The translations under genes and the position numbers were made by a program. Source: Cymodocea nodosa (taxonomy: Eukaryota > Streptophyta > Magnoliopsida > Alismatales > Cymodoceaceae). From it: a stretch of 64,000 nt of DNA. Under the pieces are notes generated by a model. That model was not told where the DNA came from, made no database searches, and saw nothing but the letters and a program-made list of their open reading frames with translations. The stretch spans positions 5,158,501 through 5,222,500 of the forward strand of contig JAZBRI010000003.1 in the NCBI GenBank assembly GCA_036874045.1, in the 5' to 3' direction. The number at the start of each line of letters is the position of its first letter. Position 1 is the first letter of the stretch. Positions 4,549 to 62,315 of this stretch are shown here, one piece after another.

Positions 4549-5388
4549 TATTTGTCTTTAAGTCCATCCAAGCCTAGGCCAAGACTCCTTTTGACAAGTT
4601 TAAAAAAAAACTCTCGGCTATGATACTTTGGTATTGTTGGAAAAGTTAGTGTAACATTAGATATAAGGACTTGCAGGAGACCTTCAAGGAGGTTCGTGGA
4701 AGAGTTTACTCAGAGTTACAACTCTTCTTGAGTTTGCATGGTTCTTCTCCTCATCCGGTCAGGGGAGGGCTGTGGCTGCACTGGTGCAATTCTGAGGCTG
4801 AGTTTCTTAAACTCAACATGGATGGGGCTGCTATGGGTGGTCATGTGGCTGGGGAAGGAGCTCTCAGGAATTGGAAAGGGGAGTTGGTTTTTGCTTTCAG
4901 CTATTATTACGGGCCTATTGACAGTATTTCAGTGGAATTAAATGGCCTTTACTAAGGCCTTCTTATGTGTGCGGCCAAAGGGTTTACTCTTGGATCAATT
5001 AAGATGGAGATTGACTCTTTGGTGCTTCATAAGGCTATTCAGGATGGTGTTTGTCCAACCACCACCAACAGATTCATCTGGTTGAATCTATTCCCTCTAC
5101 TCCATCAGATCTCAAACGTTAGTCATGTTTTCAGAGAATGCAACCACTTGACTGACCTTCTGGACAAACTTGGTCTACAACATAAACAACACCTTGAATA
5201 TGGAGATATTTCTCACATCCCTAGACATATTTGAACTCAACAACTTTTAGATGCCCATGGATTCTCCAATTTCAGGAGGTCCTAAGGCTGTTGAAGTTAA
5301 TTTTTTAATGTTCCATACTTTGTAATCACTTTTGTTGGGCCCCCATCCCATTAATAGATTGGAGATTTATTATAAATAAAAAATGTGG
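4549..5388 (+). mobile_element. LINE 3' part (RNase H domain and 3' end)
   Basis: Continuation of the LINE interrupted at 865. The frame from about 4671 reads LKLNMDGAAMGG (the DGA active-site region of the plant LINE RNase H), then GALRNWKGELVFAFS and ISVELNGLY, a stop, and in the same frame MEIDSLVLHKAIQDG and VSHVFRECNHLTDLLDKLG. These are the D-E-D type conserved blocks. The ORF ends at 5234. The 3' end has TTATTATAAATAAAAAA near 5366-5385, consistent with the A-rich LINE tail. At least one stop (4955) breaks the domain. Confidence 0.85.
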
Positions 5389-5720
5389 TGTCCAAATTCA
5401 ATGCTAAGACTAGGTAGTGATATATGGCTCAAACAAATTACAAAATGATGTGATGGAACCTGGTTTCATGTACAAGTTCAAATGCAAATGCAATGTGAAA
5501 ATCAAGTATGCAACTTTATTTCACATATCCTTACATTCCATGACTAAGTATATTAAGATTGACCATCACTATGTTAGAGATTTGGTGATGGAGACATTGA
5601 TGGCCATTGCCACACCTTGTACATTATTTTCTGAATTTGTTGTTGATATCTTCAACAATGGAGTAGAGACCGTTATTCATGAGTCATTGTCTAATACCTA
5701 AAGTGGCAATGAGGTGATTG
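5389..5720 (+). pseudogene. Copia RNase H tail fragment, copy A
   Basis: The frame ending at 5701 reads MTKYIKIDHHYVRDLVMET and FVVDIFNNGVETVIHESL. This corresponds to the copia RNase H C-terminus (RTKHIEVDxHFIRD..., ADIFTKGL...). No other part of the element is present here. The upstream 120 bp is repeated in diverged form at 5895-6040 (copy B). Confidence 0.7.
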
Positions 5721-6326: not shown

Positions 6327-6841
6327 TTTTTTTTAATAAAAAGCCTCCGATCTATTCATGGGGTGGGGACCAAAACAAAACTTATCAAAGTACAACATGA
6401 GGGGGACTAAACCAAAATCTCACAAAATACCAAAAACAAAAAGAACAAACAGCAAGTAAATCTAATTAAATCCTCCTGCAGCATGGACTGCTCCATCCGT
6501 CAAGTAAGACTTGGCTTCTGAATCTTTAAAATTAACCTTTTGGCAAAGTTTTAGTCCTTCACTAGCTAAACTGTCCACAACACCGTTCACTTCCCTAAAA
6601 ACATGAGAAATTGACCCTACCAAAGTTAGCATGTGTATCAGGTCAAACCAGAAGTGCACAGGATGGAATATCGGACATTCCTGCCCCAAAACAGCCTTGT
6701 AGACAAGCAAGGAATCTACCACCACAAACCAATTGAAGCTGGATCTGGTTTTTGATGACAAAGTTTAAGACCCTCATAAAGTGCTCTCAATTCGCAAAAT
6801 AACTACTGCATTGATCATAAAAGTTCGTAGTGGCCATAATC
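6327..6841 (-). mobile_element. 5'-truncated LINE (RNase H part), antisense
   Basis: On the minus strand, CELRALYEGLKLC (6765-6800) and after a frameshift VVVDSLLVYKAVLGQ and SISHVFREVNGVVDSL match the LINE RNase H blocks seen at 4671-5234, so it is the same lineage. The 3' end is a T-run on the + strand at 6327-6334, which is the A tail. It is flanked by ATGTTGAGATTAAC (6313-6326) and ATGTTGAGATTGAC (6842-6855), a 14 bp target-site duplication of copia copy B. Confidence 0.8.
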
Positions 6842-7010: not shown

Positions 7011-7426
7011 GGTGTCAAAGTTATTATAGATTACATCTTGCTGTCCTAAAAATTGCCCATCTTGATAATAGAGGTTTAGTCTCACGTAAGATATTGTAAA
7101 TATAAGCCTATCTTGTAAATCTTATTTAAAGGGATTCATACTAGTGGACAGAATTCTCATTTTTCTCCTTACTATTTATCAAAATTAAATATAAAAAAGG
7201 AAGATTAAAAATTATATGATTGGAAATAATGAGAAAAGATTTTCAATCACATAATTCAACTATACAATATAGTGATTAGAGGGTACTTTTGTGGTTATCT
7301 TTTCCATTGTATATAGTAATCTTTTAATTTGTTTATATCTTATATTCATTACATAGGCATGATAATATAATTATAAAATATGTATTTAATTTTATTTTTA
7401 ATCTGTCATATTTCTGGCATTGATAG
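7011..7426. other. AT-rich intron end before SAC exon, possible LTR trace
   Basis: No coding signal. Bases 7060-7180 (ataagcctatcttgtaaatc and following) look like the promoter part of a short copia LTR that would follow the RNase H tail, but I find no partner copy. The last 60 bases are pyrimidine-rich and end with the splice acceptor AG at 7425-7426. Confidence 0.35.
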
Positions 7427-20232
<12,806 letters not shown>

Positions 20233-26580: not shown

Positions 26581-26979
26581 GGTATTATTATTTTTTTGAT
26601 ACAAAAGTAAGAAATTAAATCACAAGTATAAGTTTGAATACTTAAATTCACATTAATAATATATTAAATGTTTTTTGTCACTATTGAGATACATGTCCAG
26701 GATATTGTCTTAAAAAGTAAAACTTTTGTATGTAAACTTGTGGACTCCACAAAAACCTTGATTGTGTGTAGACTTGTTTAGAATGAAAAAGTACATAATA
26801 TTAACGGTTAAATGATGGTTAATTGCATAATATTTAGCTTATAATATGAGAATTAAACTATTATGTTATAATTGCACTGTTATAAGCTTTAATTAAAGAA
26901 TCTGCTTAATTTTGGAGAATTAATGTTAATTTAGTATATTTTTGAATTGTTGGTAAGTTGTAGGATGTGAAATCCTTAA

Positions 26980-27582
26980 GTATCCGAATTTTCTGATATT
27001 TCGGACAGTTATGTTTAACATACTGAACATGTATCAGATAGTTATGTTTAAATTACCAAACAGTTATGTTTTAAAAGAATATTTTATTATTTCCTGAAGT
27101 ACATGTATCGAAACCATAATGCATGACTTAAGTGAACTTTCGGTGAGTTATCTATAACTATCCGAAATTGCAGCTAGGTATCGGATAGTTATATGTGTAA
27201 CTCTCCGAAATTTCCTTTTATTTATAAAATAGTTGTGAACACGTGTCATGTTCTGGGAAAGTGACTTAAGTGGATTTTCGGTGAGTTATCTCTAACTATC
27301 CGAAATGCATTTGGGCATCGGATAGTTAGACCTGTAACTCTCCGAAATGTTTCTTTTATTATTAAATTACTGCTGACATGTGTTGAGATTTGGTAGATTT
27401 ACTTAAGTTATATACCGTTGAGTTATCTGTAACTATCCGAAATGCATCTTGGCATCAGACAGTTAAGTTTGTAAGTATCTGAAATGCACCTGAGCATCAG
27501 ATAGTTAAATTTATACACGTGTTTTATAGTTAAATCAACGAAGTAAGTCCGTGGAGTTACTTATCTGTAACTCCACGGACTA
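26980..27582 (+). repeat. Array of GAGTTA/TAACTC inverted repeats with CACGTG-like spacers
   Basis: Repeated units carry TTTCGGTGAGTTA...TAACTATCCGAAA (27138-27167) and TCGGATAGTTA...TAACTCTCCGAAA, separated by GACTTAAGT and CACGTGT words. The same words in the same order fill the LTRs of the 53.7-62.3 kb copia (minus strand), so this is a diverged relative of that LTR in the opposite orientation. It ends with a perfect 15 bp inverted repeat at 27546-27581. Confidence 0.8.
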
Positions 27583-28720
27583 TTTATTTTCTAATATGCC
27601 ACTGTAGTGGTTGCAGAAACAGGATAGTTGGAAGGAAAAACCACGATCGCACGTATCGCGTAGAGAGAAGAAATCATCGTCGTTGATATGAATGAAGGAA
27701 ATCCAACCGATCATTCAAGTAGAAGTAGTTACCACTGAAGAAATATAAAAGAAAAGAAGAAAAAGAAGTAAAGAGTGTGTGATCGATGAGTGTGGCCAGT
27801 GTGTGCAAAGGAGGATCAGCGTCGACAATTCTCTGAAGTACCACACCAACCATCATCACCACCACCATAATCATCAACCATCGGAGGTCTATGAGAATAC
27901 TTTCTTGATGTTGGATCGATTCCGAGCCAAACACAATGCTTGACAACCACTGTGAGGAGTGATCGCGTCGCGGGAAGGGAAGCTATTTTCACCAAATGCC
28001 GACTCATATCTCAGGAGATCGTAAAACTTTTAGCCTTGGTTTCGAGTTGATGCTTGTATGCTGAAGAGATCATTTTGCAATTCTGGACTTGCAATTTTAT
28101 AGGAAGAGGAGACAAAATTGTAAGTGGTTTAATTTTAAGTGGTATAATCGCATCGCATGTAGTGATGGAAGTATTTACTGTCAATTGAGATTACTTTACA
28201 TTTCACCTTTCGTACATTTCCATGTTCATATTAAAACAAAAATACCAAAAATAATTTATCTGTGTTTGTATTTTGTATTTGAGTGTTGTGTTGTTTGTAT
28301 TGTATCGTGATTAATGTTATCTTTGTCAGTGTTGTGATTGTTTTATGTTTGTTTTAGTTTTACAATTTACTGAAATTGGTTCGTTCAAAAGACTTAAAGA
28401 TTTTAATGGTTACTGTTTGAATTATCTGAATATTAGTATGCTTAATGATAAATCTCGTGTTTACTAACATTAAAGAGCTTAATTGATGTTATTTACAATC
28501 TATGGAACTGCCCAATGGTTGGCCGAATTTCTCTGTAAATAGCAGTATTAAATTGGAATGACAAGCTCATGGAGTTAACTTAAGTCCACGAGGTTAATCC
28601 GTTGATTTAGCCATAACTCAACGAATTTTGTCCGTTGAGTTAACTATAATTCAACAGAGAGTTTATTAAATATATAAATTTGATTGTTCAAAACGGAACA
28701 ATTCTCAATTCTTAAGCAAT
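27583..28720 (+). other. LTR-like downstream region, no gene
   Basis: GC-richer stretch to about 28010 (GATCGCACGTATCGCG...) then AT-rich DNA. At 28614-28642 there is another inverted repeat of the same type, TAACTCAACG...CGTTGAGTTA. Probably the rest of one long LTR (R/U5). Confidence 0.35.
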
Positions 28721-28970
28721 TCCCTATAAGATCGACCTGTACTTGCACACTAATACAGTAGACACTATGCACTTGTAGTTAAAATACAAATTGAAATTAA
28801 AATCTAATTTGTGTGAAAGGTTGTTTGTTTACTTCTAAAAAAAAGTAGAATAGGCATAAAGATAAATTAACTAAGTAAAAACAGAAGTTAACAAATACAA
28901 GTTTTTCTGGTACATTGCTGGAGATCTAAACAAGTTTTTTGGTGTCGTGCTAGGTAACCAAATAGGACTC
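28720..28970 (+). mobile_element. Athila-like (gypsy) LTR end and leader remnant
   Basis: AAGATCGACCTGTACTTGCA at 28728 and AGTTTTTTGGTGTCGTGCTA at 28934 resemble two leader words of plant Athila elements (GATCGACCTGTACTTGC, and GTTTTTGGCGCCGTTGCCGG before gag). Nothing coding follows. Based on remembered consensus only. Confidence 0.4.
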
Positions 28971-40882: not shown

Positions 40883-41368
40883 TCAAGTTAGAGCATATAT
40901 ATCAAACGTACCCAACTTGTTACAAAGATTTTCAAAAACATTGGCACCAAACCCTTTGGTAAAAATATCTGCAACTTGGTCTTCAAATCGAGTGAAAGGT
41001 GTGGAAATGATCCCTTTGGCCACATGGTCTTTAATAAAATGACAGTCAACCTCGACGTGCTTTGTCTTTTCATGAAAGATAGGATTACTAGCGATATAAT
41101 TGACTGCTTGATTATCACAATGCACAAGAATAGATGAGTTCACATTAATTTGTAGTTCTTGTAATAATGTCTTTAACCAAATAAGTTCTGTGGTAGTTTG
41201 AGACATAACTCGATATTCAGCTTCTGCACTTGACTTGGAGACCATATTTTGTTTCTTGCTTCGCCAGGTAACTAGATTTCCACCAAGATAAGTACAAAAA
41301 TCAGAAGTAGACTTTCTATCAGCTTTGTCTCTTGTATAACCAGCATTAGAGTATCCTTCAACATTCAA
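40883..41368 (-). pseudogene. Copia RNase H domain
   Basis: 161 codons: EGYSNAGYTRDKADRKST (first catalytic Asp replaced by Asn), SSAEAEYRVM (Glu), VHCDNQAVNYI (Asp), HVEVDCHFIKDHV, VADIFTKGF and C-terminus NKLGTFDIYALT. Open but missing one active-site residue. Confidence 0.88.
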
Positions 41369-41440
41369 GTGTCTATGTTTTTGATATAGAAGGCCCTTTC
41401 CCAGGGCATTTTTGAGATAGGTGAGAACACAAAGAGCTCC

Positions 41441-42460
41441 TTACCAATGGACATGTTTCAAGGCATGCATGAATTGACTGAGTAGACTGACGATATAAGA
41501 GATATTCGGTCTTGTCACAGTTAGATAGATCAGTTTTTCCACTAACCGTTTATATCTCCCTATATCTTTAAAGAGAAGAGAGTCTTCATCCCAAAAAGAA
41601 TAATTTTGTTCTATAGGAGTACACTCTGGTTTGCAACCTTCAAGGTCGGTTTCTTTTAACAAATCCAAGATATACTTCCTTTGAGATAGAGATAGATACC
41701 CTCTGAAATAGGCTAGCTCAATGCCAAGGAAATATCTCGGGGATCCCATGTCCTTGGTAGTAAATGTTTTTTAAAGGAATTGTTTTGTCTTTTCTATGCC
41801 TTGAGGATCATCACCTGTTGAAGCATGTCATCAATAGATACTGCAAGAATAACAACTCCCTTATCAGTATACTTGATAAAGACATAGTGATCAACCCTAC
41901 AGCTGTCAAACCCATGATTCAGCATAACACTACTAAATTTTTCAAACCAGGCTTTTAGACTCTGCTTAAGTCTATAAATTGCCTTGTGAAGCAAGCAGAC
42001 TTGATTGTTCTTCTGATTAGCATAACCGAGGGGTTGTTCCATAAAAACCTATTCATTAAGATCTCCATATAAGAAAGCGTTCTTAACATCAAGTTGTGTT
42101 AACCTCCACGACTTGTTTACAACTATAGATAGAATTACACAAATGGAATCAAGGCAGGCAATAGGAGAAAAGTCTTAGAGTAATCAACACCATACTCTTG
42201 GGAGAATCCTTTAGCCACCAATCATGCCTTGTATCGGTCAATAGAACCATCTGAATGATGTTTAATGATGTAAACCCACCTGCATGAAACTACATTGCCT
42301 TCATCAAGACAAGGAATCAGATCCCAAGTACCATGAGAGAGTAGAGCATCCATTTTTTCATCTATAGCTACTTTCCAGTGAGGTATTTGGAGTGTCTCAT
42401 GATAATCCCAAGGTAAATGTTCAGAAGTAATAGATAGAGCAAAGGTACGAAAAGTGGAAT
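41441..42460 (-). pseudogene. Copia reverse transcriptase, frames broken
   Basis: The frame 42042-41794 contains MEQPLGYANQKNNQVCLLHK, AIYRLKQSLKAWFEKF and VVILAVSIDDMLQ, which replaces the usual YVDDM. The frame 41749-41441 has SPRYFLGIELAYF, LSLSQRKYILDLLKET and NISYIVSLLSQFMHALK. The N-terminal part (42050-42400) is frameshifted. Confidence 0.85.
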
Positions 42461-42623
42461 TCAGGTTTGCATAGGAGACAATATGAGATAAGGGATGTTG
42501 TGTGCATGAGCGAGCCCCCTTTCATAAGGTAATAGGTAGGCTATCATCAGGTAATAAGGAAGTAGACTCACCAATAGGAGCAGTGAAAGAAGGGGACGTA
42601 GGTAGAGCTGGAGGCCGTGGTCT

Positions 42624-43774
42624 TCAATGATATACCTGGTATGTAGGTTGATCATTTGTGTTTTGTATAGACATGTTTTCAGATTTTGTAGCATGAGTAT
42701 CTGGAGTCGCATCAACATCATTGGTGTTAATATTTTTAAATTCTGTGGCATGAGAAAGAGGACCCAATAGAGGAGGAGAAATACTCTTAGAAACATAACC
42801 TATGGGAGAAGTTTCCGTGGAAATAGTGTAGGACTGAGACTCAAAGAATGTCACATCCATAGAAGTATAATATTTCCTAGTTGGAGGGTGATATACTCGA
42901 TATCTCTTTTGGGTATGAGAGTACCCCACAAACATGTACTTGATAGACTTGGGGGACAACTTATCAGCTCTGGGCATAGATTTTGAACCAAAGCAATACA
43001 TCCAAACACACGAGGAGTAATAGGAAAAAATTCAGTTTCAGGGGCAAGACGTTGAATGGGGATAACGCCTTCTAAGGATGTTGAGGGCATCCTATTAATC
43101 AAACACGTAGCAATAAGAATAACATCAGACCAAATGTACTTTGAAACCCACATATGAACTAAGAGAGTGCGAGCCACATCAAGAATATGATGGTGTTTGC
43201 GCTCAACCACCTCATTTTGTTGAGAGGTGTGAAGGCAAGTCATTTAATAAATGATGTCATGAGAAGCACACAAATTCTAAAACTCATGCTGAACAAATTC
43301 AAGAGCATTGTCAATTCTTAAAATTTTGGGATAGATGGAGAACTGATTTTTTATTTCAGTTAAAAAAGTTTGAAAAACATCTAGAAAAGTTTGATGATTT
43401 TTCAACAAATACACTTAAGACACTCAAGAAAAATTGTTAATTAAGACAATGCAATATTTATGACCTAGAACAGACACGATATAACTAGAACCCTAAATAT
43501 CATAATAGACAAGTTCAAACATACTAGTAGACGATACAAGACGAAGGTGCTTAAATGTAGCACGATGATGTTTCCCAAGCTAACAAGACTTACAATCAAA
43601 AAAAGGAACAGACATCCATGAGAGAGCTTGACGAAGTTTGACCCATGATGGATGATTCAAGCGGTGATGCCACAAAACTGAAGTGTCTGTACTTGACAAG
43701 CCTGTGATCAACTCACGGGAAATATCGTCACGAACCAGCAAGTACACCTCATCAATCTTCTGTCTATGACCCAA
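42624..43774 (-). pseudogene. Copia GAG-pre-integrase and integrase, frames broken
   Basis: 43774-43580: LWHHRLNHPSWVKLRQAL (zinc-binding start). 43243-42851: LHTSQQNEVVERKHHHILDV (catalytic Glu region) and CLINRMPSTSLEG. 43001-42624: KLSPKSIKYMFVGYSHTQKR. The catalytic Asp region near 43300-43570 is not in one open frame. Confidence 0.85.
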
Positions 43775-53729: not shown

Positions 53730-55486
53730 TGTTAGGATCAATAGACTTACTAGAGAGGGGGTAAATAGTGAAAGTGTGTATTTTTAAAATTCTTTTAATG
53801 TTGAATCGAATGATTCAACAAAAAATGAGATGAAACTAATATAATGCAAATAAACAGAGATAAGAAATACACAGCAAATTTTTAGGTGGTTCACCAATTT
53901 GGCTAGTCCACCCCCAAGATTCACTTTGACTTCACTAAGTGTTTCAACACTTACATATTTGCTTTCAGGTCAAAGTAAGAACCAACTACACAGAAGTTTT
54001 CAGGTAAAAACTTCAGTAAACCAACCTCTTGAGTTTTCAAGTCGAAACTCAAACCAACACTGTATGTAGCTTTTAGGTTGAAGCCACGAACCAACAGCTT
54101 TAAACCTTCAATCAGAGTTTTGGCGCAAGAGCTTTTTCTGCATTGGATCTTCTGAATATTCTTCACTGTTTGCAGGCTTGAATATCAATGGAATTCGAGT
54201 GTAGCTCACTGTATATCTCTACTGTATATCCGTTGTCTGTATTTTGAATATATACTTGATATGTATAATGATCATATTTTCTTCCAACGGATGTATTCTA
54301 CTGTACTTGATTACGATCAAGTCCCAATACGGCAAGTGACCGTTCAGAAAAACGTTTCAAGTCAACTTACCAATTTTCCTGTTCTTTTGGATAGTTAGCT
54401 ATGCAACTCTCTGAAGAGTAACTGTAACTCACCGAAAGATCACTTATCATTTACTACCAGGTAGGATTCCAGAATATTTAAATGTGAGCTGTCATCCAAT
54501 CGGATACTTATAACTATAACTTACCGAACAGTTATATACTTAACTCTGTCAACTTTTCGATTTAATTTAGCACGAGCATAAAAGACTTACTTAGGTTTCG
54601 GAAGGTTATTCTGTAACTCACCGAAATTCTTCAGGATTTCGGATAGTTATTTTTCTCTCCAAAAATTTATTTGAACCACTGTCTGGAATTCTGCACGTGG
54701 AAAATTCAATGACTTAAGTTTCGGATGGTTAAATTGTAACTCACCGAAACTCTTTTGAAATTTCAGATAGTTATCCTTCTAACTCTCCAAAAACCTATTT
54801 GAGCATCTGTCTGGATTTCTACACGTGGAAAATTCACTGACTTAAGTTTCGGATAGTTAAACTGTAACTTACCGAAACTCTCTTTTAAATTTCAGATAGT
54901 TATCTAACTCTCCGATTTTTCCATTTAAACTTTCAACTGCCGGCTTTCTTCATTTTGCACGTGCGTAATAAAATGACTTAAGTTCCAGAAAGTTATGTCT
55001 ATAACTTACCGAAAAACTCGAATAGTTATCTAACTCTCCGAAAAGAAAACTCGGATAGTTATCTAACTCTCCGACAAGTCTTTTAAGCTTCCGTTCTGTA
55101 TTTCTGCACGTGGTTTATTGAATGACTTAACTTTCGGATAGTTATACCTGTAACTCTCCGAAAAGTCCTTTAAGCTTCCGGATAGTTATCTCCTTAACTA
55201 TCCGATCATTCAATCTCTTTAACTGTCTGATTAAATAACTCTCCGAAGGCTTTGTAAAATCAGATAGTTATTCTTTTAACTGTCTGATAGCATTGCTGCT
55301 GCTTTAAACTTGCTCTTCGGATACTTAGACCTGTAACTGTCTGATTTTGCTGACTCTTCTTGATCTTTTCATCTACCTGGAAATAGTTCTAACAGCCTTC
55401 TGATCTAATGTAATAAGACTTAACTGTGAAATACAATATGTTTCCTCACATAGGTTTTGCATTATCAAAATACTCAGGTACTAACA
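53730..55486 (-). repeat. 3' LTR, 1,757 bp, with inverted-repeat array
   Basis: + strand TGTTAGGATC...GTACTAACA. About 54385-55345 is an array of short inverted repeats such as TTTCGGATAGTTA...TAACTCTCCGAAA (55132-55163) and the perfect CGGATAGTTA...TAACTATCCG (55179-55204), interspersed with GACTTAAGT and CACGTG. A frame at 54166-53951 (MKNIQKIQCRKSSC...) is repeated in the other LTR at 60979-60764 but has no known domain. Confidence 0.93.
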
Positions 55487-55500
55487 ATCTCTCCCTTTTT

Positions 55501-55920
55501 GATAATGACAAAAACCTTTACAATTATTTACATGTATTTCACTCCCTAGTGTATTTCTATACATTTAGTCACACAGAGAAACATAAAACAAGAATTTAAC
55601 AAAATTATACTGACAAGGAGGGATTCCTCCCCCTGACTTTGAGCAGACTTCTCTCCCTATCTGTGTGCTAAGTTTTTCTCTTTTAATTCTTGTTGGAAAT
55701 ACTATGAGTGACCATGACAAATTTCCAATCCTTCTCCCCCTTTTTGTCATTATATAAAAAGGTGAGGACTGTAAAGTTGATTTTCTGTAAAACTGATATA
55801 ACCTGCACGAGTAGTTTAGCAGAAAAACAAGCTCCCATATTGTGAGCTTGATGAATAAAATATTTAAAGATCTTGTAAAGAGCATATTCCTAGATTTCGT
55901 CTAATATGATTAAAAGTTGA
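55501..55920 (-). other. 3' untranslated part between RNase H stop and purine tract
   Basis: Contains a polypurine-like GGGGGAGAAGG stretch on the minus strand at about 55732-55743 that could be an extra tract. No coding similarity. Confidence 0.45.
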
Positions 55921-56130
55921 TTCATTTAAAGGTTTGGTGAAAATATCTGCAAGTTGATTTTTTGTTGACACAAACTTAAGTGAAATATTCCCTTTCTCCA
56001 TATGATCTCTCAGAAAATGATGTTTGATCTCGATATGCTTGGCTCTGGAATGAAGTACTGTATTCTTAGATAGACTGATTGCACTGCTGTTATCACAAAA
56101 TATGATTGAATTCTGAATTTTAGTCTATAA
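55912..56130 (-). pseudogene. Copia RNase H C-terminus in a shifted frame
   Basis: The minus strand reads IIFCDNSSAISLSKNTVLH, RAKHIEIKHHFLRDHMEKG, VSTKNQLADIFTKPLN and ends ICSLQDL. This is the normal continuation of pol, one frame away from the 799-codon ORF. A single indel near 56127 separates them. Confidence 0.85.
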
Positions 56131-58409
56131 TCTGTTAGAGTTTGCTGCATCCAAAGAATTTGTGCATAGCACAATCCAGCTGCAATATACTCAGCTTCAG
56201 TAGTAGATAAAGCTATACAATTTTGTTTCCTACTGAACCATGAGATTAAAGAACATCCAAGTAATTGACAAGTACCACTGGTGTTTTTTCTATCAGATCT
56301 GCTCCCTACATAATCTGCATCACTATAGCTTGTTAAAATTAAACTACTGTCAGCTGAGTAGAATAATCTGAAATCTTTTGTTTCTTGTAGATATCTGAAG
56401 ATTCTTTTGACTGATTTCAAATGTGATTCCTTTGGTGATGCTTGAAATCTAGCACACAAGCATACACTAAACATAATATCTGATCTGCTAGCTGAAAGGT
56501 ATAACAGGGATCCAATCATACCTTTATATAGCCTTTGATCTACTGCAACACTTGAATCATCCATTTCTATTTTAATGCTTGAGCTCATTGGAGTATTTAC
56601 GGATTTGATGTTTTCATAACTAAATTTCTTCAACATCTCTTTGCAGTATTTCTCTTGGTTGACAAAAATATCATTATGCATTTGATGAATCTGTAATCTC
56701 AAGAAAAACTTCAATTCTCCCATCATACTCATTTTAAATTTATTTTTCATCAAATTCTGAAATTCACGACAAAGATCTTCTGAAGTGGCTCCAAAGACTA
56801 TATCATCAACATATATTTGTACAATCAACATGTGCACATCAAAAGTTTTGACAAACAAAGTGTTGTTCACTTTGCCTATAGAAAAATTGTTTTTAATTAA
56901 AAATCTTTTCAATTTCTCATACCAAGCTCTAAGTGTCTGTTTCAAACCATATAAAGTTTTTCTCAGTTTGTAGACATGATCCAGCTTGAGTTCATCTTCA
57001 AATCCAGGAGGTTGTTTTACAAACACTTCTTCTTGAATTTCTCCATTTAAGAATGTACTTTTTACATCCATTTGAAACAATTTTATCTTCATACTACTTG
57101 TAAAGGCAAGCAATATTCTGATAGTTTCAATCCTGGCTATAGGAGCAAAAGTTTCTTCATAGTCAATACCTTCCTGCTGATTGTAGCCTTGTGCAACTAA
57201 TTGAGCTTTATTTCTGAGAATGTTATCATCTTCATCTAATTTGTTTTTGAAAATCCATTTAGTTCCAATGATGGATTTTACTGTAGGTTTTTCTATTAGT
57301 TCCCACATATTATTTTTCTGAAACTGATTTAATTCTTCCTGCATGGCTATTGTCCAGTAGGTATCATTACAGGCTTCATCTACTGATTTTGGTTCTATTT
57401 CTGACACAAATGCACAAAAATTACAGATATCTTGTGTTTTGCTTCTGGTTTGTACCCCTTTGGATATATTTCCAATAATTTGTTCCTCAGGATGATCAGA
57501 TCTAAACTTCCAACTGTTATGATTCTGATATCTAAGGTTGAGATTCTGGTCTAACACTTGTGAATTGGTATTCTGCTTGCTTTTATCATCTTCAAAGTCT
57601 TCATTTTCACTATCATCATTAATCTTCAGCTTTTTGAAATTCTGAAACAGATCTTCATCAAATTGAGCATTTATACTTTCCTCCATTCTTCTATCTTCAG
57701 CAAAATATACTCTGTAAGCTTTGCTTCTTGAAGAGTAACCAACAAGTATGGCAGGTTCAGACTTAGCATCAAACTTGTCTTTAGCATTTCCTGTATTTAA
57801 GACATAACATTTGCATCCAAATGTCTTAAAATAGCCCACATTTGGAGTTTTATCGAACCAAATTTCAAAGGGTGTCTTATTCAATATGGATCTAATGTGA
57901 GTTCTGTTGGAAATGTGACAAGTTGCTCCTACAGCTTCTGCCCAGAGAAATTTAGGTAGACTCGTAGCACTTAACATAGTTCTAGCCATTTCTTGTAATA
58001 TCCTATTTTTTCTTTCCACAACTCCATTTTGAACAGGAGTTCTAGGACAAGAGAATTCATGTAAAATTCCAAATGAATTACAGAGGTTTTCAAAATCATA
58101 GTTTTCAAATTTACCTCCATAATCACTTCTAATTTTCTTCATTGTTAGTTCCTTTTGATTCTGAACTCTTATGCAGAAATTCCTGAACTCATTGCAAGTT
58201 TCATTTTTATGTGTCAAAAATATTACCCAAGTTAATCTAGAGAAGTCATCAACAATAACAAAGGTATATTTTCGACCCCCAAGACTTGATACTTGAGAAG
58301 GACCAAACAAATCTAGATGTAGTAGTTTTAATGGTCTTTTAGTGGAAACAACACTTTTGCTGTGATAAGCAGTTCTCTTCTGCTTCCCTAGCATACACTC
58401 ATTGCACAC
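56010..58409 (-). CDS. Copia pol: integrase, reverse transcriptase, RNase H (799 codons)
   Basis: Starts inside the integrase zinc domain (CNECMLGKQKR). The integrase catalytic triad is Asp33 (HLDLFGPS), Asp96 (IRSDYGGKFEN) and Glu132 (VVERKNRILQEMA); the C-terminal block is AILVGYSSRSKAYRVYF. RT starts at KSIIGTKWIFKNKLDEDD, with FQMDVKSTFLNGEI, KTLYGLKQTLRAWYEKL and the active site IYVDDIVFGATS. RNase H has SYSDADYVGSRSDRK and STTEAEYIAAG; the third acidic site lies after a frameshift near 56127, and the last 40 codons of this ORF are out of frame. The start Met is only the first after a stop, not a true start. All RT and integrase catalytic residues are intact. Confidence 0.92.
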   Translation of the reverse strand: MCNECMLGKQKRTAYHSKSVVSTKRPLKLLHLDLFGPSQVSSLGGRKYTFVIVDDFSRLTWVIFLTHKNETCNEFRNFCIRVQNQKELTMKKIRSDYGGKFENYDFENLCNSFGILHEFSCPRTPVQNGVVERKNRILQEMARTMLSATSLPKFLWAEAVGATCHISNRTHIRSILNKTPFEIWFDKTPNVGYFKTFGCKCYVLNTGNAKDKFDAKSEPAILVGYSSRSKAYRVYFAEDRRMEESINAQFDEDLFQNFKKLKINDDSENEDFEDDKSKQNTNSQVLDQNLNLRYQNHNSWKFRSDHPEEQIIGNISKGVQTRSKTQDICNFCAFVSEIEPKSVDEACNDTYWTIAMQEELNQFQKNNMWELIEKPTVKSIIGTKWIFKNKLDEDDNILRNKAQLVAQGYNQQEGIDYEETFAPIARIETIRILLAFTSSMKIKLFQMDVKSTFLNGEIQEEVFVKQPPGFEDELKLDHVYKLRKTLYGLKQTLRAWYEKLKRFLIKNNFSIGKVNNTLFVKTFDVHMLIVQIYVDDIVFGATSEDLCREFQNLMKNKFKMSMMGELKFFLRLQIHQMHNDIFVNQEKYCKEMLKKFSYENIKSVNTPMSSSIKIEMDDSSVAVDQRLYKGMIGSLLYLSASRSDIMFSVCLCARFQASPKESHLKSVKRIFRYLQETKDFRLFYSADSSLILTSYSDADYVGSRSDRKNTSGTCQLLGCSLISWFSRKQNCIALSTTEAEYIAAGLCYAQILWMQQTLTDYRLKFRIQSYFVITAVQSVYLRIQYFIPEPSISRSNIIF

Positions 58410-58894
58410 TCTATCCTTCTTAAAAGTGAGTTTAGGTAGACCATTAACAAGATCACCTGTGGATAGCTTTCTGATATTCTTTATGCTGATGTGACCAAGT
58501 CTTCTATGTCACACCTAATCGTCTTCACTATTTGCTACAAACAGGAATTGTTTGCAGAATTTTCAAATGGAAAGTTTAATGTATATATTGAGCAATTTCT
58601 AATACCAGTAAATTTTGTTTCATTTATGGCAGGATCAATAATGTAGCAATTTTTAGCATTAAAGGAAACAATATAGCCTTTATTACATAATTGTCCTACA
58701 CTTAACAAATTTTGTTTTAAACTATTTACATGCAAGACATTCTCAATTATACCATTTTCAGATGTAATATTTCCTATTGTAATTATTTTACACTTTTCAT
58801 TATTTCCAAACTTAACAGATCCTGAACTTAAGTTTTTAACTGAGTCAAGAAAGTTTTTCTTACCTGTCATATGTTTTGAGCATCCACTGTCCAC
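58410..58894 (-). pseudogene. Copia protease and GAG-pre-integrase
   Basis: MDSGCSKHMTGKKNFLDSV carries the aspartic protease site (DSG). QNLLSVGQLCNKGYIVSF and FVANSEDD follow. Two stops then lie in DD*V*HRRLGH (58505-58520), where the family has Trp at both positions. HRRLGH with downstream CNEC forms the integrase zinc site. Confidence 0.88.
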
Positions 58895-58940
58895 AATCCA
58901 TTTAGTTGAACGTGTTTGAAACTCCTTGTCACCTTACAAA

Positions 58941-59885
58941 TCATACTGAAATTAAAGCTTTTGGTACCCAAATCTTCTTGGATCCAGAGGAGTTAGTCCT
59001 TAAAACATTAAATCTATTGCCTCTTGGCACCCACATATAACCTGATCTTCGTTTGATGGCAAACATAGTGGTGTCATCTCTATAAGATCGAATCACTCCA
59101 CCATAATAAGGTATTTCCTGTGGTGTAGCATATCTTAGGCCATATTTATTCTCATTTGATCGTTGAGATCCTATTATTTTATTTAATCTTTTTTGTCTTT
59201 GAGTAAATTTACATATAGTATTTTTCAAATCTAATATAGTAGTTGATAGTATTTTATTTTCATCTTTTAATTTACAGTTATCACAACTATATTTATCTAA
59301 ATTTGATTTTAGATTCCTATTTTCAACTATAGTTGATTCTAATTCAGCAAATGAATTTTCTAAGCACTGATTTAATCTTTTAATTTCTTTCTTAAAATCT
59401 CTATACTTCACATATAAATTATCTACAGTAGATAAAAGACTATTTATGTCTAGATCATCATGCTCATTTTCTGAACTAGAGGAAGTAGAGCATACCTCTT
59501 GTGCTGCAAAACAAACATTTGCTGCAGCTTCTTCTTCAGACTCTGATGAACAGCTTGAAGAGCTACTGTCATCCCACGTAGCTTTGAGAGCCATATTCTT
59601 TTTGTCTTTCAATTTCTTATTCTTATCTCATTGATACTCTTCTATCTGAAATAGACAGATGGTCTGTATGTGCCATTGCCTTTTACATTTGAAATACGTA
59701 GGAACAACTCTTTTAGAGTAGCTGGGCTTATTCTTTTTCTTCATGAATTTTCTGAAATTTCTTGCCAGCAACATGATCTCATCATCATCTGAGGTAGGAA
59801 CTTCTTCTGTAGATGGAAATGTTATTTCCTTTTTCTTTTCAGCTTTCTTTTCAACAGTTCCTTCTTGCTCTTTCCAGTACTTCAT
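58941..59885 (-). pseudogene. Copia gag C-terminal part and spacer
   Basis: 59885-59628: KEQEGTVEKKAEKKKE, then MLLARNFRKFMKKKNK and a decayed zinc knuckle YFKCKRQWHIQTICLF (first Cys replaced by Phe, Gly before His lost). 59612-58941: acidic Ser/Glu-rich segment followed by a coiled-coil-like region (LDINSLLSTVDNLYVKYRDF and on), as in many plant copia gag proteins. Confidence 0.8.
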
Positions 59886-60023
59886 CTAAGCTTTGTGGGC
59901 CAGAAGATTGCCCAACAATTCTTCAACTGTATAGTTGTTAAGATCCTTGAAATCTTGAATAGATGTGGACTTCTGTTTCCACTCAACAATTAAGCTCCTC
60001 AGGATCTTCTGTACCTATTCACG

Positions 60024-60500
60024 TTAAGAGAACTCCTTTCTCAAGTTTTTCAAATTGTTAGTGATTTCAGTAAATCTAGAAAATATTTCAGTTATGTTTT
60101 CATTATCATTCATTTTAATCAGTTCAAGTTTTCTTAAAAAAATACTGATTTTTGTATCCTTAACCTGGCTTGTACCTTCATGAGTAACTTGAAGGATTTT
60201 CCACGCCTCATGAGCAGATTTATATGTAGATATTTTATTATATTGATCAGCAGTTAGTGCACAATAAATAGCATTCAACTCTTTAGTATCCAACTAGATG
60301 ATTTTCTCATTCTCCTCAGACCAGTCCATAACATTACTGGTTGGAAGTGTAGTTCCAAGAACAACAATCTTCCAGAGTTTAACATCAGAACTCCTAAGTA
60401 AACACTCCATTCTATTCTTCCAATAGTTATAATTAGGGCCATCGAATAGGAGAGGTCTGTGGATGTTTTGTCCCTCAACAAATTGAACCATAAATTCAAA
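60024..60500 (-). pseudogene. Copia gag N-terminal part (UBN2-like)
   Basis: MVQFVEGQNIHRPLLFDGPN, YNYWKNRMECLLRS, then after a stop LNAIYCALTADQYNKIS and SAHEAWKILQVTHEGTSQVK match the plant retrotransposon gag UBN2 domain (NYxxWKxRM..., KEAWDxLxxxHEGTxxVK). Two stop codons interrupt it. Confidence 0.85.
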
Positions 60501-60528: not shown

Positions 60529-60540
60529 GCTCTGATACCA
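60529..60540 (-). other. Primer-binding site
   Basis: The minus strand reads TGGTATCAGAGC, a perfect copy of the standard plant copia PBS complementary to initiator tRNA-Met, two bases from the LTR edge. Confidence 0.93.
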
Positions 60541-60542
60541 AT

Positions 60543-62315
60543 TGTTAGGATCGATAGGCTCACCAAAGGGGAGGTGAATGGTGAAAGTGTGTATTTTTAA
60601 AATTCTTTTAATATTGAATCGAATGATTTAACAAAAAATGAGATGAAACTAATATAATGCAAATAAACAGAGATAAGAAACACACAGCAAATTTTTAGGT
60701 AGTTCACCAATTTGACTAGTCCACCCCCAAGGTTCACTTGGGCTTCACTAAGTATTTCAACACTTACACACTTGCTTTCAGGTAAAAGCAAGAACTAACT
60801 ACACAGAAGTTTTCAGGTAAAAACTTCAGTAAACCAACCTCTTCAGTTTTCAGGTCGAAACTCAAACCAACACTGTATGTAGCTTTCAGGTTGAAGTCAC
60901 GAATCAACAACTTTAAACCTTCAATCAGAGTTTTGGCGCAAGAGCTTTTTCTGCAATGGATCTTTTGAATATTCTTCACTGTTTGCAGACTTGAATATCA
61001 ATGGAATTCGAGTGTAGCTCACTGTATATCTCTACTGTATATTCGTTGTCTGTATTTTGAATATATACTTGATATGTACAACGATCATATTTTCCTCCAA
61101 CGGATGTATTCTACTGTACTTGATTAGGATCAAGTCCCAATACAGTAAGTGACCGTTCAGAAAAACGTTTCAAGTCAACTTACCGATTTTCTTGTTCTTT
61201 CGGATAGTTAGTTATGCAACTCTCTGAAGAGTAACTGTAACTCACCGAAAGATCACTTATTCTTTACTGCCAGGTAGGATTCCAGAATATTTAAATGTGA
61301 GCTGTCATCCAATCGGATACTTATAACTGTAACTCACTGAACAGTTATATACTTGACTTTGTCAACTTTTCGATTTAATTTAGCACGAGCATAAAAGACT
61401 GACTTAGGTTTCGAAAGGTTATCCTGTAACTCACCGAAATTCTTTAAGATTTCGGATAGTTATTTTTCTCTCTCCGAAAACTTATTTGAACCACTGTTTG
61501 AAATTCTGCACGTGGGAAATTCAATGACTTAAGTTTCGGATGGTTAAATTGTAACTCACCGAAACTCTTTTGAAATTTCGGATAGTTATTCTTATAACTC
61601 TTCGTAAACCTATTTGAGCATCTGTCTGAATTTCTACATGTAGGAAATTTACTGACTTAAGTTTCGGATAGTTAAACTGTAACTTACCGAAACTCTCTTT
61701 TAAATTTCAGATAGTTATCTAACTTTTCATTTAAACTTTTAACTGCCGGTTTTCTTCATTTTGCACGTGCGTAATAAAATGACTTAAGTTCCGAAAAGTT
61801 ATGTCTGTAACTTACCGAAAAACTCGAATAGTTATCTAACTCTCTGAAAAGAAAACTAGAATAGTTATCTAACTCTCCGACAAGTTTTTTAAGCTTTCGT
61901 TCTGTATTTCTGCACGTGGTTTATTGAATGACTTAACTTTCGGATAGTTATACCTGTAACTTTCCGAAAAGTCCTTTAAGCTTCTGGATAGTTATCTCTT
62001 TAACTATCCGATCATTCAATCCCTTTAACTGTCTGATTAAATAACTCTCCGAAGGCTTTGTAAAATCAGATAGTTATTTTTTTAACTGTCTGATAGCATT
62101 GCTGTGCTCTAAACTTGCTCTTCTGATACTTAGACCTGTAACTGTCCGATTTTACTGACTCTTCTTAATCTGTTCATCTGGAACCTTCTTGATCTTTTCA
62201 TCTAACTGGAAATAGTTCTAACAGTCTTCTGATCTAATATAGTAAGACTTAACTGTGAAATACAATATGTTTTCTCACATAGATTTTGCATTATCAAAAT
62301 ACTCGGATACTAACA
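60543..62315 (-). repeat. 5' LTR, 1,773 bp, with inverted-repeat array
   Basis: Partner of 53730-55486, identical for long stretches with scattered substitutions and small indels (an extra GATCTGTTCATCTGGAACC-like piece near 62168). It carries the same inverted-repeat array at about 61200-62160, and is followed by TSD GAAAT. Confidence 0.93.

Follow-up and report, generated by a model that had tools for sequence, protein, structure and literature searches.

A bipartite half-site array, putatively an enhancer module, in the U3 of Copia and Gypsy long terminal repeats of Cymodocea nodosa

Why should the long terminal repeat (LTR) of a retrotransposon be filled with short words that face one another? 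The question is raised by a stretch of 64,000 nucleotides of Cymodocea nodosa (contig JAZBRI010000003.1, positions 5,158,501 to 5,222,500), hereafter the window, in which the original prediction described an LTR packed with inverted-repeat words sharing one core and considered cruciforms or RNA hairpins, a multi-site enhancer or a source of small RNAs as possible roles. All the words that it named are present in the sequence, and both LTRs of the element concerned (family F1) carry the array, in which the word stands in both orientations. The element lies on the minus strand, so that U3 is the high-coordinate side of each LTR. Its features are as follows.

53730 to 55486, minus strand: 3′ LTR of a Sirevirus-like Ty1/copia element (F1), with TGTTAG...CTAACA ends
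54248 to 54254, minus strand: TATA-like word TATATAT of F1 at LTR position 1234 (coordinate converted by hand), 3′ of the array in element sense
54385 to 55345: half-site array in the U3 of the 3′ LTR, with 19 strict CGNNNAGTTA sites in the LTR
54711 to 54827, plus strand: one composite module, GACTTAAGT, F, R, F, R, CACGTG, at offsets 0, 8, 26, 50, 69 and 111
55487 to 55501, minus strand: polypurine tract CAAAAAGGGAGAGAT, adjoining the 3′ LTR
56010 to 60293, minus strand: broken gag-pol, with gag_2, Pol_BBD, rve, SH3 and RVT_2 in separate open pieces (Pfam)
60529 to 60540, minus strand: primer binding site TGGTATCAGAGC, tRNA-Met type
60543 to 62315, minus strand: 5′ LTR of F1, pairing with the 3′ LTR
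61198 to 62151: half-site array in the U3 of the 5′ LTR, with 18 strict CGNNNAGTTA sites in the LTR

GAAAT is present at both outer flanks of the element. The K2P distance between the left and right LTRs is 0.060 (88 transitions and 12 transversions in 1747 aligned positions), which corresponds to about 2.3 million years at a plant substitution rate of 1.3e-8 per site and year. The domains follow the Ty1/copia order, with the integrase before the reverse transcriptase. F1 also has most Sirevirus hallmarks. One hallmark is the presence of multiple AGGGGGAG linker tracts, the last one 10 bp before the 3′ LTR. In F1, the exact octamer occurs 148 and 255 bp upstream of the 3′ LTR, and the variant tract AGGGAGAG occurs at 172 bp and, as the terminal one, 10 bp before it. 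The AT/TG attachment site (GAGAT directly followed by TGTTAG) and the Sirevirus core of the primer binding site, TATCAGAGC (AACA followed by ATTGGTATCAGAGC), were also found. By eye, an inverted repeat (CATTATCAAAA ... TTTTGATAATG) spans the junction of the polypurine tract and the 3′ LTR, and a C-rich integrase signal lies near the LTR 3′ end, as CACCATTCACCTCCCC in the 5′ LTR and as a CCCCC run on the minus strand in the 3′ LTR. In addition, a palindromic CGG-CCG motif, repeated and CpG-rich, stands in U3 ahead of the TATA-like word. Since F1 has most Sirevirus features, its array belongs to the kind of repeat called RM boxes in Sireviruses. Elsewhere in the window, remains of another Copia-like element lie at 40886-43243 on the minus strand (SH3_retrovirus domain at 42627-43031), and two tandem copies of 191 bp with 99% identity at 10339-10724.

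The strict half-site CGNNNAGTTA is concentrated in the three LTRs of the window that carry arrays, with 19, 18 and 15 copies; the remaining 58,280 bases contain a single one. The third of these LTRs (array at about 26977-27590) was absent from the original prediction. Its details for F1 were borne out: 55132-55163 reads TTTCGGATAGTTA, six bases and TAACTCTCCGAAA, with a single mismatch over 13 bases; at 55179-55204, the arms match perfectly over 10 bases around a loop of 6; CACGTG and GACTTAAGT appear repeatedly between units; and the array is repeated in the right LTR. Exact TAACTCTCCGAAA occurs in the left LTR only of the two F1 LTRs. Dinucleotide shuffling, which had been proposed as a check, showed that the real F1 LTRs exceed shuffled ones in both inverted repeats and folding. 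Each F1 LTR array has 8 inverted repeats (arms of 9, at most one mismatch, loops of 3-12), whereas 200 shuffles averaged 1.28 and 1.43. The z-scores of RNA folding against 30 shuffles each were -7.6 and -6.6 (plus and minus strands) for the 3′ LTR and -6.0 and -6.4 for the 5′ LTR. The second array likewise exceeded its dinucleotide shuffles in inverted repeats and folding. A chance origin of the array was rejected on the basis of the shuffles, a genome-wide control with reversed words and the distribution of strict sites. A known structured RNA was also rejected: Rfam at gathering scores reported two snoR60 only, elsewhere in the window. These copies lie downstream of the Gly/Arg-rich start of a fibrillarin gene (PF01269; 33030-33509 and 34999-35225, plus strand), presumably in introns.

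The words can be condensed to a bipartite half-site, (T)CG-N3-AGTTA. Across the 21 sequences formed by the window and L009-L028 (228,018 bases), CG-Nk-AGTTA matched 375 times at k = 3 and 3-29 times at other k between 0 and 12, and in 17 further loci (L030-L046) it matched 203 times at k = 3 and 0-10 times at other k; all loci beyond the window lie within the initial 8.8 Mb of contig C1 and were chosen for their match, and the array copies are related, so that the counts are not independent. Two classes of half-site were distinguished, class A (TTTCGG-NN-AGTTA) and class B (TCCGTTGAGTTA, TTCGTTGAGTTA and kin). Of 68 strict pairs that closely face each other, AGTTA inward, 53 have a gap of 4-6 bp, and the same gap was found in 190 of 217 pairs of a looser set in which gaps of 2-9 were allowed. 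Across the 374.6 Mb of the genome, TTTCGGATAGTTA occurs 26,809 times (13,268 + 13,541), against 8 (4 + 4) for the reversed control. TTTCGGNNAGTTA faces its own inverse within 30 bp at 6,374 places, and ACTTAAGT followed by a facing pair occurs 11,223 times (5,689 + 5,534), with 0 in the control in either case. Half-site pairs in the same orientation number 2,829 + 3,052 (control 0), and most of those listed hold a reverse half-site between them, as judged by eye.

The array is not confined to F1, and a single-family oddity was rejected because arrays occur in several LTR families. A search for other members, which had also been proposed, found the array in further F1 loci (L012, L023, L031, L036, L040, L042 and L043) and in other families. 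Automatic clustering put 26 of 27 arrays in one group because the elements are nested, and the families were then split by hand. The second array of the window, with like half-sites and module layout, belongs to family F2.

26775 to 28964, plus strand: probable solo LTR of Ty3/Gypsy family F2, with flanks AGACT/GGACT (4 of 5 equal); ends by eye
about 26977 to 27590: second half-site array, in the F2 LTR
28572 to 28650: class B half-sites (TCCGTTGAGTTA type) in the F2 LTR, about 30 bp upstream of TATATAAAT

Pieces of F2 were found in 14 of the 20 loci L009-L028. The superfamily of the solo LTR in the window is taken from another copy, L029, the interior of which holds RVT_1, RT RNase H, integrase H2C2 and rve; since RVT_1 and RNase H precede the integrase in this one element, F2 is assigned to Ty3/Gypsy. 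The F2 primer sites of L014, L015 and L017 start with TGGCGCCG, which we take to be Athila-like. F3 (L020, L026, L027 and L035) adjoins a Copia gag in L027, and in F4 (L009, L011, L014, L028 and parts of other loci) a fragment of a Copia gag lies 500 bp inward from the U5 end in L028. F5 (L016, L033, L034, L037, L039 and L041) is also Copia, with gag_2 in L033 and L037 and RVT_2 in L034. Its polypurine tract AGTGGGAG, present in L034, L039 and L041, is named in a section of PMC2829016 as a common variant in classic elements, and F5 would accordingly be of the classic rather than the Sire lineage, as judged by the tract and not by a tree. F7 (L044-L046) has a Sirevirus-type tract in L046; its word occurs five times in L046 and three times in L045, in a single orientation, and a degenerate facing pair is also visible in L045, at a greater distance. 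A class B array ahead of TATATATA and a Gypsy-type gag, found at one locus (L024), is tentatively called F6. In L024, a 293-codon open frame without a Pfam match (4828-5706) lies downstream of the F2 array stretch, and the Gypsy-type gag lies beyond it, at 7040. F2 LTRs adjoin F4 copies near 3840 in L014, near 4361 in L028 and, by eye, near 1400 in L021.

The half-sites are arranged in a composite module, of which 84 anchors resembling GACTTAAGT (one mismatch allowed) and followed by a half-site were collected from the 21 sequences, not all of them complete. Measured from GACTTAAGT, most class A rows of F2-F5 have half-sites at 13 (F), 30-32 (R), 53-55 (F) and 72-74 (R), and most F1 rows have them at 8 (once 7), 26-28, 47-52 and 66-71, with CACGTG at 108-132. 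Three F1 rows on the opposite strand begin at 13-17, two F3 loci have an extra row at 17-18, 35-36, 58-59 and 77-78, and class B rows in F2 begin at 20. Many F2 rows have CACGTG, presumably a G-box, at 113-116, and two F4 rows have it at 100-101; it is absent after the module in the F3 and F5 rows of the 21 sequences. Relative to transcription, F1 and F4 have the module in antisense, and F2, F3 and F5 have it in sense; such a difference among families fits an enhancer, which tolerates either orientation.

Read in element sense, the strict F1 sites, 19 in one LTR and 18 in the other, all precede TATATAT at 1234/1249, and a further TATATAA lies inside the array at 950/965. The class B pair of F2 ends about 30 bp before TATATAAAT. 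Among three F5 LTRs, TATATAA follows most sites in two, one site of L033 lying after it, and no TATATAA was found in L037. In the one F4 LTR examined (L009), TATAAAT follows the last site, and in the one F3 LTR (L027) no clear TATA word was found after the array. In F1, the arrays have a CpG observed/expected ratio of 1.08-1.11, the remainder of the LTR one of 0.56 and the interior one of 0.14. The F2 array has a ratio of 1.10, and the remainder of its LTR is nearly as high, at 0.94.

From the half-site, its pairing and its placement, we propose, with a probability of about 0.65, that the array is a U3 enhancer, that is, a cluster of putative (T)CG-N3-AGTTA half-sites for one DNA-binding protein, most likely a host factor. 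A host transcription factor would bind two facing half-sites 4-6 bp apart as a dimer. The pairs, together with GACTTAAGT and in some families CACGTG, make up a module that spans about 115 bp, has almost constant spacing and is repeated in tandem upstream of the core promoter. As the module is common to several LTR retrotransposon families of both superfamilies in this genome, an orientation-tolerant enhancer shared between families could place them under the same host factor. Several observations count against an enhancer: RNA folding that greatly exceeds shuffles in stability, the presence of the U3 of the 3′ LTR in the genomic RNA and the excess of matching changes in the pooled classes described below; weak or absent core conservation in close F2 pairs and the CpG ratio of 0.94 in the rest of the F2 LTR; and a TATA word soon after the array that is not clear in the F3 LTR of L027 and is absent in L037.

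How the module came to be in both superfamilies was addressed by sequence comparison. The same half-site, mostly in the order GACTTAAGT-F-R-F-R, occurs in the classic-tract Copia family F5, in other Sirevirus-like families and in the common Gypsy family F2. The Copia LTR of F4 in L009 can be aligned with the Gypsy LTR of F2 in L013 over 223 bp at 78% (E 5e-42), in opposite orientation relative to transcription. Between the half-sites, F2 and F4 agree in 9-17 of 25 bases (shuffled 6.5-8.3; p > 0.1 in 2 of 18 comparisons), and F2 or F4 agrees with F5 in 5-7 of 25 (shuffled 6.3-6.8; 9 comparisons). A masked comparison left three matches, F1-F3, F3-F4 and F4-F7, the first two at the LTR end; the F2-F4 match was lost because masking splits it into short pieces. 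Judged by these comparisons, homology beyond the words is seen between F2 and F4 only, which evidently share a U3 stretch by transfer, insertion or descent. The other families have only words and layout in common, which may reflect constraint or age. We see an even chance that, within one plant genome, Ty1/copia and Ty3/gypsy LTRs have exchanged a composite enhancer module of fixed internal geometry, which is oriented oppositely to transcription in the two, in which case unrelated families would obey one host regulator and regulatory modules, not only coding parts, would be exchanged. If the module was truly passed between Copia and Gypsy, families that have no recent coding ancestor in common could come under joint activation and silencing, and about 26,800 word copies would be raw material for the rewiring of host genes.

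The main alternative is that the palindromes are kept as secondary structure, with RNA hairpins or cruciforms serving the life cycle or feeding small-RNA silencing. It has in its favor folding z-scores of -6 to -12, the excess of inverted repeats and some perfect palindromes, such as 55179-55204 and 6 of 25 pairs in L030-L046. The U3 of the 3′ LTR lies in the genomic RNA of the element, so that RNA hairpins could form there and position is no bar. Moreover, palindrome clusters of maize Sireviruses are reported as small-RNA hotspots with strong predicted structure in the relevant passages of PMC5311732 and PMC10760457. If pairing were the constraint, changes in one arm should be compensated in the other. 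However, among 95 class A pairs in which neither arm deviates at more than two positions, 6 compensated changes were found against 8.9 ± 2.7 by permutation, and in a looser set of 130 pairs 18 were found against 20.8 expected. The two central bases of class A were identical in 10 of the 95 pairs against 23.8 expected, and 0 of 2000 permutations gave so low a value. For strict sites of both classes, N3 was equal in 11 of 68 pairs against 7.8 expected (p 0.125). With the classes pooled, matching changes in both arms numbered 79 against 44.8 (0 of 1000 permutations), mainly because class B arms face class B arms; this excess favors structure, and for class B pairs it leaves room for pairing, which may occur.

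The two arms of a pair also tend to differ. Exactly one ATAGTTA arm was present in 66 of 67 listed genome pairs with gaps of 4-7 (33.5 expected) and in 45 of 50 pairs from the window and L009-L029, although in only 18 of 25 pairs from L030-L046, where 6 had two. Facing class A pairs are in this sense mostly heterotypic, an ATAGTTA arm with a TGAGTTA, AGAGTTA or TAAGTTA arm, less so in L030-L046; a heterodimer, ancestry or avoidance of perfect palindromes are possible causes. Furthermore, the word run of F7 points one way and so excludes self-folding of the facing-pair type. With the reservation that the choice of cores depended on a match in one member of each compared pair of sequences, which somewhat favors them, core bases were conserved at 86-91% against 76% for other array bases between the left F1 LTR and L012, at 84-88% against 73% between the right F1 LTR and L012, and at 80-91% against 72% between the F2 LTR of the window and L013; conservation was weak or absent in the close F2 pairs of the window with L021, L022 and L024, and not clear between L013 and L028. 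Hairpin pairing as the main constraint on class A was rejected, since compensation is missing and the centers are mostly unpaired. The originally proposed hairpins or cruciforms can form, as the folding indicates, but the class A arms and the one-way run of F7 speak against them as the reason for the array, and secondary structure seems an unlikely account of it as a whole. For class A half-sites, a DNA-binding protein is the better reading, and of the three roles first suggested the multi-site enhancer fits best, on the class A and F7 evidence against hairpins.

It is quite improbable that the half-sites serve several families in trans as targets of a VANC-type anti-silencing protein encoded by an element. 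The undepleted CpGs of the arrays would suit such a protein, and known VANC target motifs are short, tandem and non-coding, those of VANC6 being found also in the unrelated AT9TSD1, but the motifs given in part of PMC5735166 differ (YAGTATTAY, AGTTGTCC and AGTTGTAC). Placement ahead of the TATA word fits a promoter role instead. That the array is an old, functionless repeat spread through several LTRs by tandem duplication and nested insertion is just as improbable: tandem units of 128 and 137 bp, F2 LTRs adjoining F4 copies in L014 and L028 and the capacity of slippage to expand tandem repeats would allow it, but the spacer is strictly 3 bp, the layout is common to families lacking homology between the half-sites (F2 or F4 against F5, 5-7 of 25 against about 6.5) and the CpGs of the F1 array are undepleted.

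Returning to the enhancer, its closest known counterpart is the RM array of Sireviruses. In the sections of PMC2829016 that treat them, RM boxes are palindromic, have a CGG-CCG core in all but one case, number 8-32 copies and begin 200-400 bp into the 3′ LTR, ahead of the TATA box. As the design is the same, and as the Osr9 box TTTTCGGACWTRTCCGAAAA has a similar sequence, the original claim that no named LTR family has it was wrong. The arrays described here resemble RM boxes in their many dyad copies in the first half of the LTR, upstream of the TATA box, and the Osr9 box resembles their TTTCGG...CCGAAA. They differ in having a CG-N3-AGTTA half-site with a separate gap, mostly of 4-6 bp, and in belonging to a composite module that also contains GACTTAAGT and, for some families, CACGTG. 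RM boxes are called Sirevirus-specific and absent from classic retrotransposons in PMC2829016 (in part), whereas the arrays here occur also in a classic-tract Copia family (F5) and a Gypsy family (F2). A partial precedent is one maize palindrome common to structured regions of Copia and Helitron elements, noted in a passage of PMC10760457. Whether Sirevirus palindromes are protein sites or structure is left undecided in the pertinent parts of PMC2829016 and PMC10760457.

Host factors are known to act through LTR sites, as in Tto1 with NtMYB2 (PMC6762207, in part) and in ONSEN with HSFA2 and EVADE with WRKY (PMC12786077, in part), and the arrays here would likewise be sites for a host factor. 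Tandem arrays in plant LTRs usually hold two or three boxes, as stated in an extract of PMC2829016. Each F1 LTR, in contrast, holds 18-19 strict half-sites. VANDAL elements are not LTR retrotransposons. Their VANC arrays are similar as short, non-coding motif arrays found also in one unrelated element, and are unlike in their element-encoded protein and motif sequences (PMC5735166, portions). The modular U3 of the Tnt1 superfamily, as outlined in part of PMC1838419, likewise evolves apart from the coding part, but within one Copia group, whereas the U3 stretch described here is common to a Copia and a Gypsy family. In a limited look at open-licence papers, some in excerpt, we found no report of sharing across superfamilies or of a half-site grammar, and the array words used as text-search terms gave no retrotransposon paper among the matches listed. 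As far as this look reaches, what is new beyond the Sirevirus description is the sharing with classic-tract Copia and Gypsy families and the half-site grammar, which separates the protein-site from the structure reading and names the bases to test.
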